Part shown: piece by piece, positions 2,772 to 24,016 of the stretch | Position numbering within the stretch: position 1 is the stretch's first letter | Layout of the letters: the number at the start of each line of letters is the position of its first letter | Assembly: GCA_002898315.1 (NCBI GenBank) | Contig: BEHV01000003.1 | Location: forward strand, 1-64,000 | Direction of reading: 5' to 3' | Length of the DNA: 64,000 nucleotides | DNA from: a bacterium HR19 | GTDB taxonomy: Bacteria; Calescibacteriota; Calescibacteriia; Calescibacteriales; Calescibacteriaceae | Notes under the pieces: generated by a model | What the model saw: the letters and a program-made list of their open reading frames with translations, nothing else | The model's database searches: none | Told to the model about the DNA's origin: nothing | Made by a program: the position numbers and the translations under genes

Positions 2772-4073
2772 TCACCTCATCCTGACAACAAATCCTTTGA
2801 TAAGCGGTTTCCCTCTGTTATCTAATCCTCCACAAGCTATATAAAGCGTACCATCAAAAGATGAAAATGCCTCTATATCTGCGCACACAAGTTCGGTCTT
2901 TATTCTATTTGCCATCCATCCGTCTTTCTCACAAGAGTAAAATATATCCTTCCCCTTCTGATACACGACGCACGGAGAAAGAGAAGAGTAAAAAGAAGCC
3001 AGTGACCCTCCCCAGATATTTTTATCTATTGTTCCTGATTCATCCCACAGCCACTTTGAACGCCTTACAAATGCTTTCAGTTTTCCCTTCTCAATAGCAA
3101 ATAGCCCGGGCACATTACCCTTCCAGAATAACGAACAAAAATCCTCAAAAACATAAGTTAGCTTCGGATATCTAATTCGCACACTTGACACCTCTTCCTT
3201 TGAATATATCCATACACTCTGAGGGTCTAAAAAACCAAAGGGAACCTGAGGGTCTAGCATCGCAACCTCAGAAGAAGGGAAGGTTCTCTCGGGAAGACGA
3301 ATTAAATAAAAATCCGGAATACCTAATTTTTCCGGTTTTGTTAAAAATTCGTTAAAACCACCTTCAACGAAGTCCTTATCATGAGAATCTCTGAAAACAT
3401 CATACAATATGAATTTTAATGAACTTGTATTTTCTGAAAAAAGAGAGATAGAAACAAACCTTTCAGAATATAAGCTTAAATCAAAACATCTCCCATACTT
3501 TTCTTTTATCTCCGCAGTAGATATTAACTTTTCTTCTTTCCTTTCCTGCTGAATATAATTATTAATAAAATTTGGTATTCTGACCTCCCTTTCCAGCTTA
3601 TCAGATACAATCAGAAGATATATTTCGTAATTTTCGTCGTACCAAGAGATAGCTGTCAACCCCGATGAAAGAACCGCAACCGCATCTTTAACACTCCTCG
3701 TAAATTTTTTCCCGCCCGCCTCTATAAACAGAACCTTTGAACTATATTCAAGCCCTAAATTCTGCAAAATAACTTTGACCTTTGATGAAATAACAAGAGG
3801 AACCGCAAAACCTTCGGAGGATATAAAAACATAAGTTGAAGTGTTGGGCATTGAAAATGGAGCGAACCTTATGTTCCCATCCAAATCAGAAAAATATACG
3901 CATACAAAATTTTCATCGCCAATACAGTTGGAGATTTTTGGGAAAAAACCATCTCCAAAATCAACCTCAAATACGCTCCCGCTCCCATTTACGCTCCCGC
4001 TATTGCAAGAAGTGAAAAAACACAGAATAAAAAACAAAAAAATCACCACAGCGGTAATCTTAAAAGAATACAT
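2772..4073 (-). CDS. Predicted lipoprotein, family not recognised
   Basis: The protein has 433 residues from the ATG at 4073, which I prefer to an upstream in-frame start at 4112 because it places a signal peptide directly at the N-terminus: MYSFKITAVVIFLFF, then lipobox FTSC with the lipidated Cys at about residue 22. The mature part starts with a Gly/Ser/Asn linker and is beta-rich with many aromatic residues, suggesting a propeller or barrel-like soluble fold. It is the third gene of a same-strand run with 4119-5342 and 5317-7212, with a 45-bp gap. A TAATTT hexamer 7 bases before the ATG suggests it may also have its own promoter. No family recognised. Confidence 0.65.
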   Translation of the reverse strand: MYSFKITAVVIFLFFILCFFTSCNSGSVNGSGSVFEVDFGDGFFPKISNCIGDENFVCVYFSDLDGNIRFAPFSMPNTSTYVFISSEGFAVPLVISSKVKVILQNLGLEYSSKVLFIEAGGKKFTRSVKDAVAVLSSGLTAISWYDENYEIYLLIVSDKLEREVRIPNFINNYIQQERKEEKLISTAEIKEKYGRCFDLSLYSERFVSISLFSENTSSLKFILYDVFRDSHDKDFVEGGFNEFLTKPEKLGIPDFYLIRLPERTFPSSEVAMLDPQVPFGFLDPQSVWIYSKEEVSSVRIRYPKLTYVFEDFCSLFWKGNVPGLFAIEKGKLKAFVRRSKWLWDESGTIDKNIWGGSLASFYSSLSPCVVYQKGKDIFYSCEKDGWMANRIKTELVCADIEAFSSFDGTLYIACGGLDNRGKPLIKGFVVRMR

Positions 4074-17929: not shown

Positions 17930-18649
17930 ATGAAGTACCAGAGGAAACTCTCATTCTCAAAACAGGGAAAAGATTTCGTAAAAGAAAAAGAAAAGGAGCT
18001 CATCATATATAAAGAGCCAATCAAAGCACTGAAAAAATTGATACATAAAAAAAAGAAAAAAGTGAAAATAAAAATTCTTGATTTAGGTTGCGGATACGGA
18101 AGAATATCAAAAGTATTAAAGAAATTCGGTAATGTCGTAGGTTTAGATATATCATATCAGGGACTAAAATTAGCGAAAAAGCTAAAAATACCTCTTGTAC
18201 TGGGAGATGGAGAAATTCTACCGTTCAGAAGCAAAAGTTTTGATGTCGTAGTGTGTGCAGAAGCAATTCCATATACAGATAATCCATATAATATGCTCAG
18301 AGAAATAAAAAGAGTTCTTGTAAATAATGGATTACTCTTTTTATCTGTTGAAAACTTATACGGGGGTTTAATCTCTGACCCATTCATAAAAGCGTCAGAA
18401 ATAGAAGATATTATCAGAAGAGGGGAGAGCAAAAAAGCAAAGTATTTCAGAAAAGAAGAAATACTATCCACACTTGAGAAGATGGGTTTCAAGGTAATCT
18501 ATTTCAGACCAGTAGGGTTTGTAAGAGCAGGATTCCTATCAAAATACAAGTTCAGAAATGTTGAAAAGCTTGAGAGATTATGCGCAAAATATGTTCCGCT
18601 TCTTGCGAGAGCGTTTGTTATAATAGCAGTAGCTCCCTCTCATCAATGA
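17930..18649 (+). CDS. Class I SAM-dependent methyltransferase
   Basis: The protein has 239 residues. Motif I is ILDLGCGYGRISK (about residues 46-58), motif II ends VVGLDIS, the third strand region is LGDGEILPF, and motif IV is SFDVVVCAEAIPYTDNP. This is a Methyltransf_11-type fold, often acting on small molecules or quinones. The N-terminal 40 residues are strongly basic. It lies between two B12-binding radical SAM genes, so a shared pathway is likely. The stop TGA at 18647 lies in the loop of a 7-bp hairpin (18637-18643 with 18651-18657), and the frame stays open 61 codons beyond it. The called end is the natural end for the family. Confidence 0.8.
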   Translation: MKYQRKLSFSKQGKDFVKEKEKELIIYKEPIKALKKLIHKKKKKVKIKILDLGCGYGRISKVLKKFGNVVGLDISYQGLKLAKKLKIPLVLGDGEILPFRSKSFDVVVCAEAIPYTDNPYNMLREIKRVLVNNGLLFLSVENLYGGLISDPFIKASEIEDIIRRGESKKAKYFRKEEILSTLEKMGFKVIYFRPVGFVRAGFLSKYKFRNVEKLERLCAKYVPLLARAFVIIAVAPSHQ

Positions 18650-20311: not shown

Positions 20312-21637
20312 TCAATCGTAATACTCAAGACCAAGATGAGTTATGAGTTCTTCTCCCATAAGGTGTCTTAATCTGTTTTTGAGCTTCATAAGCTGAATGA
20401 AAAGGTCGTGCTCGGGATATATAGTCGGAGCATGCATCGGACTTTTGAAATAAAACGAAAGCCACTCCTGTATCCCCCTCATCCCACTCCTTTGCGCAAG
20501 GTCTAAAAACAAAGCAAGGTCAAGAACAATAGGAGCAGCTAAAATAGAATCCTTACACAAAAAGTTTATCTTTATCTGCATCGGGTAGCCCAACCAACCA
20601 AATATATCTATGTTGTCCCACGCCTCCTTATCATCTCCACGCGGAGGATAAAAATTAATCCTGACCTTATGATAATACTCACCATAAAGCTCGGGATAAA
20701 GCTCTGGCTGTAAAATATACTCAAGAACTCCGAGCTTGCTCACCTCTTTCGTCCTGAACGACTCAGGGTCATCAAGAACCTCACCATCTCTATTACCCAA
20801 AATATTTACAGAAAACCAACCCCTGAGACCGAGAACTCTGGCTTTGAGCATGGGAGCTATAACTGTTTTCATAAGCGTCTGCCCTGTTTTGAAATCCTTC
20901 CCCGCTATCGGCACATTTTTCTCCTTCGCGAGTTCAACCAATGCAGGTATATCAACAGAAAGGTTCGGAGAGCCGTTAGCAAAAGGAACTCCCTCACACA
21001 AAGAAGCATAAGCGTATATCATGCTCGGTGAAATAAGAGGGTGATTATTTCTGAGCGCTTTTTCAAAATCTTCAAGCGTCTGATGAACCTTATCTTCTTT
21101 TATGTATTTTTCTGTACTACCACACCATATCATCACAAGCCGATCACAACCTTTCTCCTTCTTGAAATTCCTTATATCTTCTCTGAGCATTTCAGCAAGT
21201 TCGTATTTACTTTTCGCTTTCTTCACATTTGGACCATCTAACTTTTTGACATATTCTCTATCAAACACCGCTGGCATCGGCTTTATATCAGATACCTCAT
21301 CTCTCGCCAACTCTATGTGGTCCTTTGAAAGAACCCCCGCCTTCAAAGCCCCTTCATAAACGCTATCCGGAAATATATCCCAACCACCAAAGACCAAATC
21401 AGAAACCTCAGCAAGAGGAACAAAATCTTTTATTTTTGGAAATCTCCTTTCGGTCCTTTTGCCCAATCTTATTCTGCCCATCTGAGTCAGAGAACCTATT
21501 GGCAGAGCAAGCCCCCTTCTCACAAGAATCGTTCCCACTATAAAAGTCGTTGCTACCGCGCCCGAAAGACCCGGAAGAAGAACCCCTAACTTACCCACCG
21601 GCTCTTTTATCTCTACACCAGACCTTGTCTTTATCAC
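20312..21637 (-). CDS. ino1: Myo-inositol-1-phosphate synthase
   Basis: The protein has 441 residues with a GTG start. The enzyme converts glucose 6-phosphate to inositol 1-phosphate using NAD. Supporting motifs: GVLLPGLSGAVATTFIVGT at the nucleotide-binding N-terminus, FGGWDIFPDSVYEGA, GSPNLSVDIPAL, the signature GKDFKTGQTLMKTVIAPML, SVNILGNRDG, and near the end DLALFLDLAQRSGMRGIQEW. This is the long bacterial form. In thermophiles inositol phosphate feeds di-inositol-phosphate compatible solutes or inositol lipids; no downstream enzyme for either is visible in the window. It is upstream of, and co-directional with, a B12-binding radical SAM gene. Confidence 0.92.
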   Translation of the reverse strand: MIKTRSGVEIKEPVGKLGVLLPGLSGAVATTFIVGTILVRRGLALPIGSLTQMGRIRLGKRTERRFPKIKDFVPLAEVSDLVFGGWDIFPDSVYEGALKAGVLSKDHIELARDEVSDIKPMPAVFDREYVKKLDGPNVKKAKSKYELAEMLREDIRNFKKEKGCDRLVMIWCGSTEKYIKEDKVHQTLEDFEKALRNNHPLISPSMIYAYASLCEGVPFANGSPNLSVDIPALVELAKEKNVPIAGKDFKTGQTLMKTVIAPMLKARVLGLRGWFSVNILGNRDGEVLDDPESFRTKEVSKLGVLEYILQPELYPELYGEYYHKVRINFYPPRGDDKEAWDNIDIFGWLGYPMQIKINFLCKDSILAAPIVLDLALFLDLAQRSGMRGIQEWLSFYFKSPMHAPTIYPEHDLFIQLMKLKNRLRHLMGEELITHLGLEYYD

Positions 21638-21771
21638 AAAAGATAATTTTTATACATCCCGAAAAGTTTGCGAAAATTTAAAAAATAATCTCCAAATCTG
21701 AAATCTTTAACTTAAAACTTAAAACCTGTTGAAAACATGGACCTCTGAAAAAAGGAGGAGCAAAAAAAGAT

Positions 21772-22977
21772 ATGGAAAAGAAAGCAAAAAAGAACAGCAA
21801 AAAATCAAAAAATAAAAAAACAGGTAAAAAAGAGAAGAGAGAAAAAACCAAAAACAAAAAAGCAAGGGCACAGAAAAAAATCAAAGATAAACCTAAAACC
21901 AAAACAAGAAAAGAACCAAAAACAAAACAAAAGAAAGCAAAAGCTCAAAAGATAACAAAAAAGAAAATTGCAAAAGAAAAAGCAATAAAAAAACAGAAAC
22001 CAAAAATAAAATTCTTCTCAGCTATTTCAGGAAGCTACCCACGCATAGGAGATACAGAAGAACTCCAAAAGCTACGAAGAGCGTGGGCAAAAAGAGAAGT
22101 CGGAGAAATCTCAGATGAAGAATACAGAGAAGTAGAAAAAGAGTTTATAAAACTCGCAATTGAAGAACAAGAAAAAGCCGGGTTAGACATAATCGGCGAC
22201 GGAATGATAAGCTGGTATGACCAAATATCACACTTCGCAAAAAACATAGAAGGAGTAAAAATAAACGGGCTTTTGAGATTCTTTGATACAAACACTTATT
22301 TCAGACAACCCATAATTGACGACTCAACCCCTAACTCCCCACAAATAAAACCATGCACACTTGATGATTTCAGATTCGCAAAAACCATAGCAAAAAAAAC
22401 AGTGAAACCAGTCCTCACAGGTCCCGTAACACTTTCAAAACTCTCAAAAGGAAACTTTGAAAAAGCAATTGAAATATACACAAAACTGATAGAAAACGAG
22501 GTAAAACTCCTCTCACAAGAGGGAGCAGAATACATACAAATAGATGAGCCAGCACTGAAATCAGAAGATTTAGCCAAAGCGCTTCCCTACCTTGAAAGAA
22601 TCTACAACGCAAAAGCAAATCCATCAACAAAAATAATATACTTTTTTTATTTCAGAGATTTTTCAGAGGACTTTGAGAGCTTCCAGAAAATCCCAGCAGA
22701 TATACTCGGGTTTGATATGACATACTCAAAGCTTGAAAACATAATAGCCAGAACAAGAATACAAAAACCCCTTATGCTCGGAATAGTTGATGGAAGAAAC
22801 ACATATATTGAAAAACCAAAAGATGTTATTCTGAGAATAAAAAAAGTTCTCAAAAACTATCCTTTCGATTTTATGATACTTTCTCCTTCGTGCGGACTTG
22901 AGTATCTACCGCGTGATTTCGCTTTCAAAAAGCTCCAAAACCTCGTGAAAATAACAGAAATGCTCAAAAAACTTTGA
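21772..22977 (+). CDS. MetE-like methyltransferase-fold protein with Lys-rich N-terminal tail
   Basis: The protein has 401 residues. Residues 1-80 are low complexity, about half Lys (39 of 80). Residues about 81-401 match the core fold of cobalamin-independent methionine synthase: SGSYPRIGDTEEL, QEKAGLDIIGDGMISWYD, TGPVTLSKLS, YIQIDEPAL, GIVDGRNTYI, SPSCGLEYLPRD. The zinc-binding His-x-Cys expected after the Glu/Asp strand is replaced by IIYFFYFRDF, as in the non-catalytic N-terminal half of full MetE; only the late Cys remains. A GGAGG 13 bases before the ATG supports the start, and no other Met occurs before the core. It may bind folate or a methyl donor without being a methionine synthase. 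Four bases separate it from convergent purC. Confidence 0.75.
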   Translation: MEKKAKKNSKKSKNKKTGKKEKREKTKNKKARAQKKIKDKPKTKTRKEPKTKQKKAKAQKITKKKIAKEKAIKKQKPKIKFFSAISGSYPRIGDTEELQKLRRAWAKREVGEISDEEYREVEKEFIKLAIEEQEKAGLDIIGDGMISWYDQISHFAKNIEGVKINGLLRFFDTNTYFRQPIIDDSTPNSPQIKPCTLDDFRFAKTIAKKTVKPVLTGPVTLSKLSKGNFEKAIEIYTKLIENEVKLLSQEGAEYIQIDEPALKSEDLAKALPYLERIYNAKANPSTKIIYFFYFRDFSEDFESFQKIPADILGFDMTYSKLENIIARTRIQKPLMLGIVDGRNTYIEKPKDVILRIKKVLKNYPFDFMILSPSCGLEYLPRDFAFKKLQNLVKITEMLKKL

Positions 22978-22981
22978 AAAA

Positions 22982-24016
22982 TCACCTTATTGAATCAAGA
23001 AAACTCCTGATTTCATTTATGACCTTTTGAAGAGTGGGAACACCTTTGAACCATTCTCTCCCTGTAATTTCATTACAACACGCCAAATACATAAGCGAAA
23101 CAAGTTTTTTGAGTTCTTCTGGCAACCTCGGTGGTGGAGTTCTCACAAGCTTTCTCCAGTTTATCTTATCTCTCTTTTTCGCTTCCTCCAACTCATAAAA
23201 CCATTCCGTCTTTCTGTAAAAGACCCTCAAAATCTCTTTGCTTATGTGGAAACCATCTTTTGTAAATCTGCATTCATCGGGAGTCCCAAGTACATCAACA
23301 AACATCAGCTCACCCTTCTCATCAAGAGCGAATTCAAACTTCCCATCTTCATTAGATATATCTGCCCTCTGAGCAAATTCCGTTATCAATTTTGATGCCA
23401 AAACCGCCTTCTTTTTTATCTCATCAAAAACACTTTCATCAATACCTGTAAGCTCTTTCGCTTCTTCCCACGAGATATATCTATCTATCTCTTCAAGTTT
23501 TGTTGAAAGCTCTATGAATGTATCTGGGAGCTTTACTCCCGGCTCCGGAAAGTACTCTAATCTAAGGTCAGAGGGACTCAATTTTCCTTCCCTCAACCTT
23601 TTGAAAACACTTGACCCTTCTGGAAGAGAATTCCTGTAAATGACTTCAAAAGGGATGAGAAAATTCGCTTTCAAATTTTTGAATTCAGAGTAATCGTATG
23701 TGTGATCTTTTACTTTTGGTTTTATAACTCTGACAAGTTTCACAACCATCTCCGCAGATGGTTCCTTGAGTTCGTCTAACCTTTTGATTTTCCCATCTTC
23801 AACAAGACCTATGTAGTGAGTTTTATAAGAATTTTCTTCAAGCTTTTCAAAAAAGAATGCCCCCATTATGCAAAGAGATCTACCCTTCAGTGGGATTTCA
23901 TCTGGCATCTTTCCCCAGTCAAAAACAGAAAATCTATCTGAAAAAACAAATTTTCCCAATCCACAGCTTGAATCCTTCGGCTTTTCAATAACCACAAGGT
24001 CTTTTACGCTTCCCAT
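22982..24016 (-). CDS. purC: Phosphoribosylaminoimidazole-succinocarboxamide synthase (SAICAR synthetase)
   Basis: The protein has 344 residues, the longer form seen in archaea and some bacteria. The enzyme joins aspartate to CAIR in purine synthesis using ATP. Motifs: GKFVFSDRFSVFDWGKMPDE near the N-terminus, IPFEVIYRNSLPEGSS (the conserved VRN-type motif), and LMFVDVLGTPDECRF corresponding to the E-x-L-TPD-x-x-R motif. It stands alone, without other pur genes, and converges on the MetE-like gene with a 4-bp gap. Confidence 0.88.
   Translation of the reverse strand: MGSVKDLVVIEKPKDSSCGLGKFVFSDRFSVFDWGKMPDEIPLKGRSLCIMGAFFFEKLEENSYKTHYIGLVEDGKIKRLDELKEPSAEMVVKLVRVIKPKVKDHTYDYSEFKNLKANFLIPFEVIYRNSLPEGSSVFKRLREGKLSPSDLRLEYFPEPGVKLPDTFIELSTKLEEIDRYISWEEAKELTGIDESVFDEIKKKAVLASKLITEFAQRADISNEDGKFEFALDEKGELMFVDVLGTPDECRFTKDGFHISKEILRVFYRKTEWFYELEEAKKRDKINWRKLVRTPPPRLPEELKKLVSLMYLACCNEITGREWFKGVPTLQKVINEIRSFLDSIR

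Follow-up and report, generated by a model that had tools for sequence, protein, structure and literature searches.

A 401-aa open reading frame in a 64,000-nucleotide stretch of genome (hereafter, the window) from an uncultured hot-spring bacterium of the Calescibacteriota, whose nearest named genomes are Candidatus Calescibacterium and related MAGs, very probably codes for one barrel of a two-protein, cobalamin-independent methionine synthase (split MetE), namely its non-catalytic subunit. The assignment draws on homology to MetE, the residue pattern at the zinc site, the presence of a partner gene, the pairing of the two genes in archaea and the lack of any match to MetH/BHMT-type synthases. 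From sequence comparison, the protein looks like the counterpart of the N-terminal barrel in ordinary MetE, a barrel that arose by gene duplication and then lost its zinc site. The barrel is preceded by a lysine-rich arm, apparently translated, flexible and polycationic, that was seen in no group other than Calescibacteriota. Split MetE has so far been described mainly from archaea and from one Sulfobacillus strain (PMC7857596); the genomes analyzed here extend its range to a candidate phylum of bacteria that seems to have no other type of methionine synthase, and they present a conserved polycationic arm on a metabolic enzyme, the role of which is open to a simple test.

The ORF, with exactly the limits given to it in an earlier sequence-only reading of this DNA, opens with an ATG preceded by AAAAAAGGAGGAGCAAAAAAAGAT, which includes a clear ribosome-binding site, and most of the four other Calescibacteriota orthologues likewise have an AGGAGG-like site upstream of their first ATG. 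No ATG, GTG or TTG codon occurs between this ATG and the core, so that the core, if produced at all, must carry the arm. The layout of the gene is given in Table 1. A myo-inositol-1-phosphate synthase homologue adjoins the ORF on the opposite strand (20312-21637), and a SAICAR synthetase (purC) homologue lies at 22982-24016 on the minus strand; the latter encodes 344 aa against the 279 positions of the TIGR00081 model and matches PRK13959.1-4 over its full length, at a score below the model cut-off (287.5 vs 546 bits). The gene neighborhood is not conserved, and flanking genes vary among Calescibacteriota genera. Elsewhere in the same genome, a 2244-aa ORF (contig C2; L072 7656-14390) combines ASPM/HYDIN-type Ig-like (ASH) domains with a C-terminal OmpA domain.

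Table 1. Features of the split MetE subunit gene, in window coordinates.
Feature	Position	Strand	Basis
ORF, 401 aa, ATG start	21772-22977	+	
Ribosome-binding site AAAGGAGGA and spacer, before the ATG	21752-21771	+	Sequence
Lys-rich N-terminal arm, residues 1-79	21772-22008	+	Composition, predicted disorder
MetE-type (beta/alpha)8 barrel core, residues 80-401 (322 aa)	22009-22974	+	Pfam, fold match, orthologues
F291-F292-Y293-F294, at the place of the zinc His-x-Cys (E. coli H641-x-C643)	22642-22653	+	Alignment
D315, at the place of zinc ligand E665	22714-22716	+	Alignment (E. coli MetE halves, catalytic subunits)
C374, at the place of zinc ligand C726, kept as in MetE N-barrels	22891-22893	+	Alignment

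The MetE-like nature of the core, recognized in the sequence-only reading, was confirmed by Pfam matches to both Meth_synt_1 (E 5e-34) and Meth_synt_2 (E 1.4e-32). The N-domain model scores higher (about 118.7-119.7 bits, cut-off 27) than the catalytic-domain model (about 113.7-113.8 bits), as against 42-46 bits for Meth_synt_1 and 269-302 bits for Meth_synt_2 in true catalytic subunits; among the archaeal orthologues of the window protein, the catalytic-domain model is slightly ahead. An AlphaFold2 model built from 14 sequences (pLDDT 81.6) predicts the core as a confident barrel matching MetE barrels at Z scores of about 28-34. The best match is the N-barrel of Streptococcus mutans MetE (2nq5 1-360; Z 34.0, 2.3 A, 311 residues), although the comparison does not separate the two MetE barrels, a C-barrel scoring 32.4. 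In a family tree, where long branches meet (1.01 changes per column between Calescibacteriota and archaeal subunits), the non-catalytic subunits likewise did not group with the N halves of MetE. Given the archaeal Pfam scores and this tree placement, it is the residues, the motifs and the gene pairing that carry the case for N-barrel status.

The residues at the zinc site follow the N-barrel pattern. As had been noticed from the sequence alone, the zinc His-x-Cys is missing: IIYFFYFRDF occupies residues 288-297, with F291-F292-Y293 aligned to E. coli H641-x-C643. The possibility, also raised then, that the ligands sit at shifted positions was rejected, as the alignment sets F-F-Y exactly on H-x-C; no shifted HxC was found in the window protein, and one ligand-equivalent cysteine (C374) is left. 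Opposite H641, C643, E665 and C726, the four zinc ligands, the protein carries F, Y, D and C. The Calescibacteriota proteins as a set have F or Y, then Y, D and C (S in one of them), compared with mostly Y, then Y, D and C in 15 Hadarchaeota orthologues, T, Y, D and C in the N-terminal half of E. coli MetE, and H, C, E and C in catalytic subunits and MetE C-terminal halves. The aspartate at the E665 position is shared by 20/20 non-catalytic subunits and by three MetE proteins in their N halves. The same pattern is found in the N-barrel of Thermotoga maritima MetE, where Phe230, Tyr232 and Asp253 disable the zinc site and Cys309 is retained (Pejchal and Ludwig, PMC539065). The serine replacing the ligand-equivalent cysteine in one orthologue (GPSSGL in L007, from genome G004) suggests, at the sequence level, that this cysteine is not essential to the subunit.

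Of the motifs taken earlier for a preserved substrate site, some are instead N-barrel signatures: VDGRN and SPSCGLEYLP of the window protein are the counterparts of INGRN and SSCSLLHSP in the N half of the E. coli enzyme, and DGM comes without the homocysteine-binding Glu484, which is gone from the non-catalytic subunits (M, L or A). S433 and D599 are kept in these subunits when aligned with E. coli MetE. The sequence-only reading knew of no precedent for a metal-less methyltransferase fold joined to a nucleic-acid-binding tail. For the metal-less fold this claim fails on two counts, since ordinary MetE has one in its N-barrel (PMC539065) and the non-catalytic component of split MetE is a stand-alone version of it (PMC7857596). 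The zinc-less barrel is accounted for by established MetE biology, and what seemed surprising about it is ordinary for a subunit of this kind. The earlier reading is partly supported: its observation holds, and its interpretation mostly fails.

A second MetE-like gene with all four ligands (H, C, E, C) lies on another contig of the same genome (C10:25757-26677), and its product passes the methionine synthase equivalog PRK04326 (411.4 bits, cut-off 406). Across the five Calescibacteriota genomes sampled (three genera, 82-86% complete, the window's own genome at 82%), an orthologue of the window protein and a catalytic gene coding for H, C, E and C are both present in every one, and in all five the two genes are unlinked. 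The orthologues are 58-87% identical overall. Both matches were obtained in 15/28 Hadarchaeota genomes; the orthologues there, 42-46% identical over the core, directly adjoin the catalytic gene, and in most genomes with both, about 100 bases separate the matches. On the earlier suggestion to look for another complete methionine synthase in the genome, the zinc-bearing catalytic subunit was found, and no MetH/BHMT-type (S-methyl_trans) synthase was matched in any of the five Calescibacteriota genomes. CdhD was not found in a search of the window's own genome either, and no type of methionine synthase other than split MetE therefore seems to have turned up. In that genome (82% complete), metF and the folylpolyglutamate synthase gene folC are encoded, and neither an OAH/OAS sulfhydrylase nor an S-adenosylhomocysteine hydrolase was matched as a source of homocysteine.

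These observations suggest how the two subunits would work together. The window protein lacks the zinc and homocysteine site just as the N-terminal barrel of ordinary MetE does, and its most likely partner, met face to face, is the zinc-bearing C10 subunit; the pairing is inferred, and the lack of linkage between the genes in each of the five Calescibacteriota genomes speaks against it. Pairing would close the cleft where the methyl-pterin donor binds, and the methyl group would then presumably pass to zinc-bound homocysteine. The donor is probably methyl-tetrahydrofolate polyglutamate, given the presence of metF and folC; its identity is uncertain because Glu583 and R15/K18, which hold the pterin or the glutamate tail in the bacterial enzyme, are missing in the Calescibacteriota system.

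The lysine-rich segment described earlier as an 80-residue tail of about half lysine is real (48.75% Lys over residues 1-80, and 39 lysines among the first 86 residues) and is an N-terminal arm, not a C-terminal tail. In a survey of 400 ORFs of at least 100 aa (464 kb, comprising 400 kb of genome stretches and the 64-kb window), it is the most lysine-rich 50-residue stretch, and the ORF is the only one with at least 28% Lys in its first 80 residues. A SAM-dependent methyltransferase gene (Methyltransf_11) at window positions 17930-18649 (plus strand) codes for 36% Lys in its first 50 residues. The arm is mostly disordered by prediction, with a weak helix at residues 52-71, and in the AlphaFold2 model its pLDDT is mostly below 60 and below 50 over the first 50 residues. 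The sequence-only reading had staked its proposal on relatives sharing this segment: those within the phylum do (5/5 genomes), and the distant archaeal orthologues do not, most having their start Met about eight residues before the GSYP motif (e.g. MELLTAST). In the five Calescibacteriota proteins the arm is 51-90 aa long with 28-46% Lys and a net charge of +18 to +40; 86, 90, 59, 72 and 51 residues precede GSYP, with net charges of +36, +40, +22, +25 and +18, respectively. A keyword search of a limited body of literature turned up no paper on a methionine synthase with a lysine-rich extension.

Between the two closest genomes, dN/dS is 0.51 in the arm and 0.10 in the core at similar dS (0.36 and 0.38), indicating that the arm is coding and loosely constrained in sequence while its charge is conserved, and that the core is under strong purifying selection. 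Judged from these alignments, the arm evolves fast with its charge kept, and it may act electrostatically, reaching for some anionic partner. That partner could be nucleic acid or the ribosome, to which we give somewhat less than an even chance; the arm may just as readily have no specific partner and reflect solubility, heat stability or drift. It is rather unlikely that the poly-lysine arm let an archaeal-type split methionine synthase use polyglutamylated folate, or tied the enzyme to ribosomes or the nucleoid, but if true this would be a new way to feed or place a methionine-supplying enzyme in a bacterial phylum.

The more specific idea of polyglutamate capture concerns the arm only and is compatible with split MetE. 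It holds that the arm replaces the basic groove that binds the glutamate chain of methyl-tetrahydrofolate, and we consider it possible but doubtful. In T. maritima MetE the first glutamate is held by four basic residues, R15, K18, R493 and R496 (PMC539065). In Calescibacteriota, R15 is replaced by E or P and K18 by Q, R496 is Ile in 5/5 catalytic subunits (Arg in 15/15 Hadarchaeota ones), and a folylpolyglutamate synthase is encoded. However, R493 is kept and a Lys follows one position after the Ile, the Hadarchaeota orthologues lack R15/K18 and also lack an arm, and an arm of 50-90 residues far exceeds what the job needs. That the arm is untranslated, its start having been mis-called, is highly improbable. 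A precedent exists in the glutamine synthetase gene of the same genome (contig C1; L066 3647-5302), where a Lys-rich run at 3780-3900 resembles an extended N-terminus. The start proper is likely marked by AAGGAGGTAAAAAAAATG at about 3860-3877, and the run is only a leader rich in purines, followed by a good ribosome-binding site, a caution on Lys-rich "tails" in an AT-rich genome. For the window gene, by contrast, slippage or an untranslated leader was rejected: a ribosome-binding site precedes the arm, alternative start codons are absent before the core, the frame stays open in five genomes through in-frame changes of length, and the arm dN/dS points to coding constraint.

Two further readings question the role of the core itself. 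In line with the sequence-only reading, the window protein may have left methionine synthesis, its MetE-like barrel having taken on a new role in nucleic-acid binding or regulation with the arm as its anchor; the histone-H1-like composition of the arm in 5/5 genomes, the lack of linkage to the catalytic gene in Calescibacteriota and the long branch to the archaeal subunits are consistent with this idea. We nevertheless judge it improbable, since the core is strongly constrained and keeps residues common to the archaeal orthologues that adjoin the catalytic gene, the catalytic partner is kept in 5/5 genomes where MetH was not found, and a Pfam search of the core found no nucleic-acid-binding domain. 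Still harder to credit is a MesA-MesD-type folate-independent core synthase minus its metal, that is, a degraded paralogue of the catalytic subunit. Its single-barrel size and comparable catalytic-domain profile score would fit, but the protein keeps features of an N-barrel (Tyr at C643, Asp at E665, Cys at C726, and the GRN and SC-L-P motifs) and is conserved phylum-wide and, in Hadarchaeota, beside the catalytic gene. With no sign of decay in the core dN/dS, this candidate was dropped, and the non-catalytic subunit of split MetE is retained as the preferred reading.

Among known systems, the arm resembles histone-H1-type nucleic-acid-binding proteins in being lysine-rich and, by prediction, disordered. 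The core shares with the folate-independent MesA-MesD/core-MetE synthases the form of a single-barrel MetE homologue; nearly all members of that catalytic group keep the zinc ligands (PMC7857596), whereas the window protein has F, Y and D at the H641, C643 and E665 positions. Closer resemblance is found to ordinary MetE N-barrels (T. maritima 1xpg/1xr2, S. mutans 2nq5, E. coli MetE 1-375) in fold, in the GRN and SC-L-P motifs and in Phe-x-Tyr for His-x-Cys, Asp for Glu and a retained Cys; unlike them, the window protein is a separate polypeptide, with a shorter region between the first barrel strands and without R15 and K18 of the glutamate-tail groove. The Hadarchaeota orthologues (L022, L027-L041) share its zinc-site loss, and differ in their adjacent catalytic gene, the lack of a Lys-rich arm and, mostly, YTYFGD for YFFYFRDF. 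Split MetE as described by Price et al. (2021; PMC7857596) consists of an N-domain subunit and a distinct catalytic one and occurs mostly in archaea, with PF1268/PF1269 forming a complex in Pyrococcus furiosus, and the genes are usually adjacent, with exceptions such as Pyrolobus. Because of its arm, the window protein exceeds by one residue the 400-aa limit of that survey, a search filter and not a biological criterion, and its gene lacks the adjacency that is usual but not required. Like the N-domain components PF1268 and PYRFU_RS09465 of Pyrolobus fumarii, by their description, it is a stand-alone barrel of Meth_synt_1 type, accompanied by a separate zinc-bearing catalytic subunit in a genome where no other kind of methionine synthase was found, and it differs from them in its bacterial phylum, its unlinked genes and its 51-90-residue Lys-rich arm.
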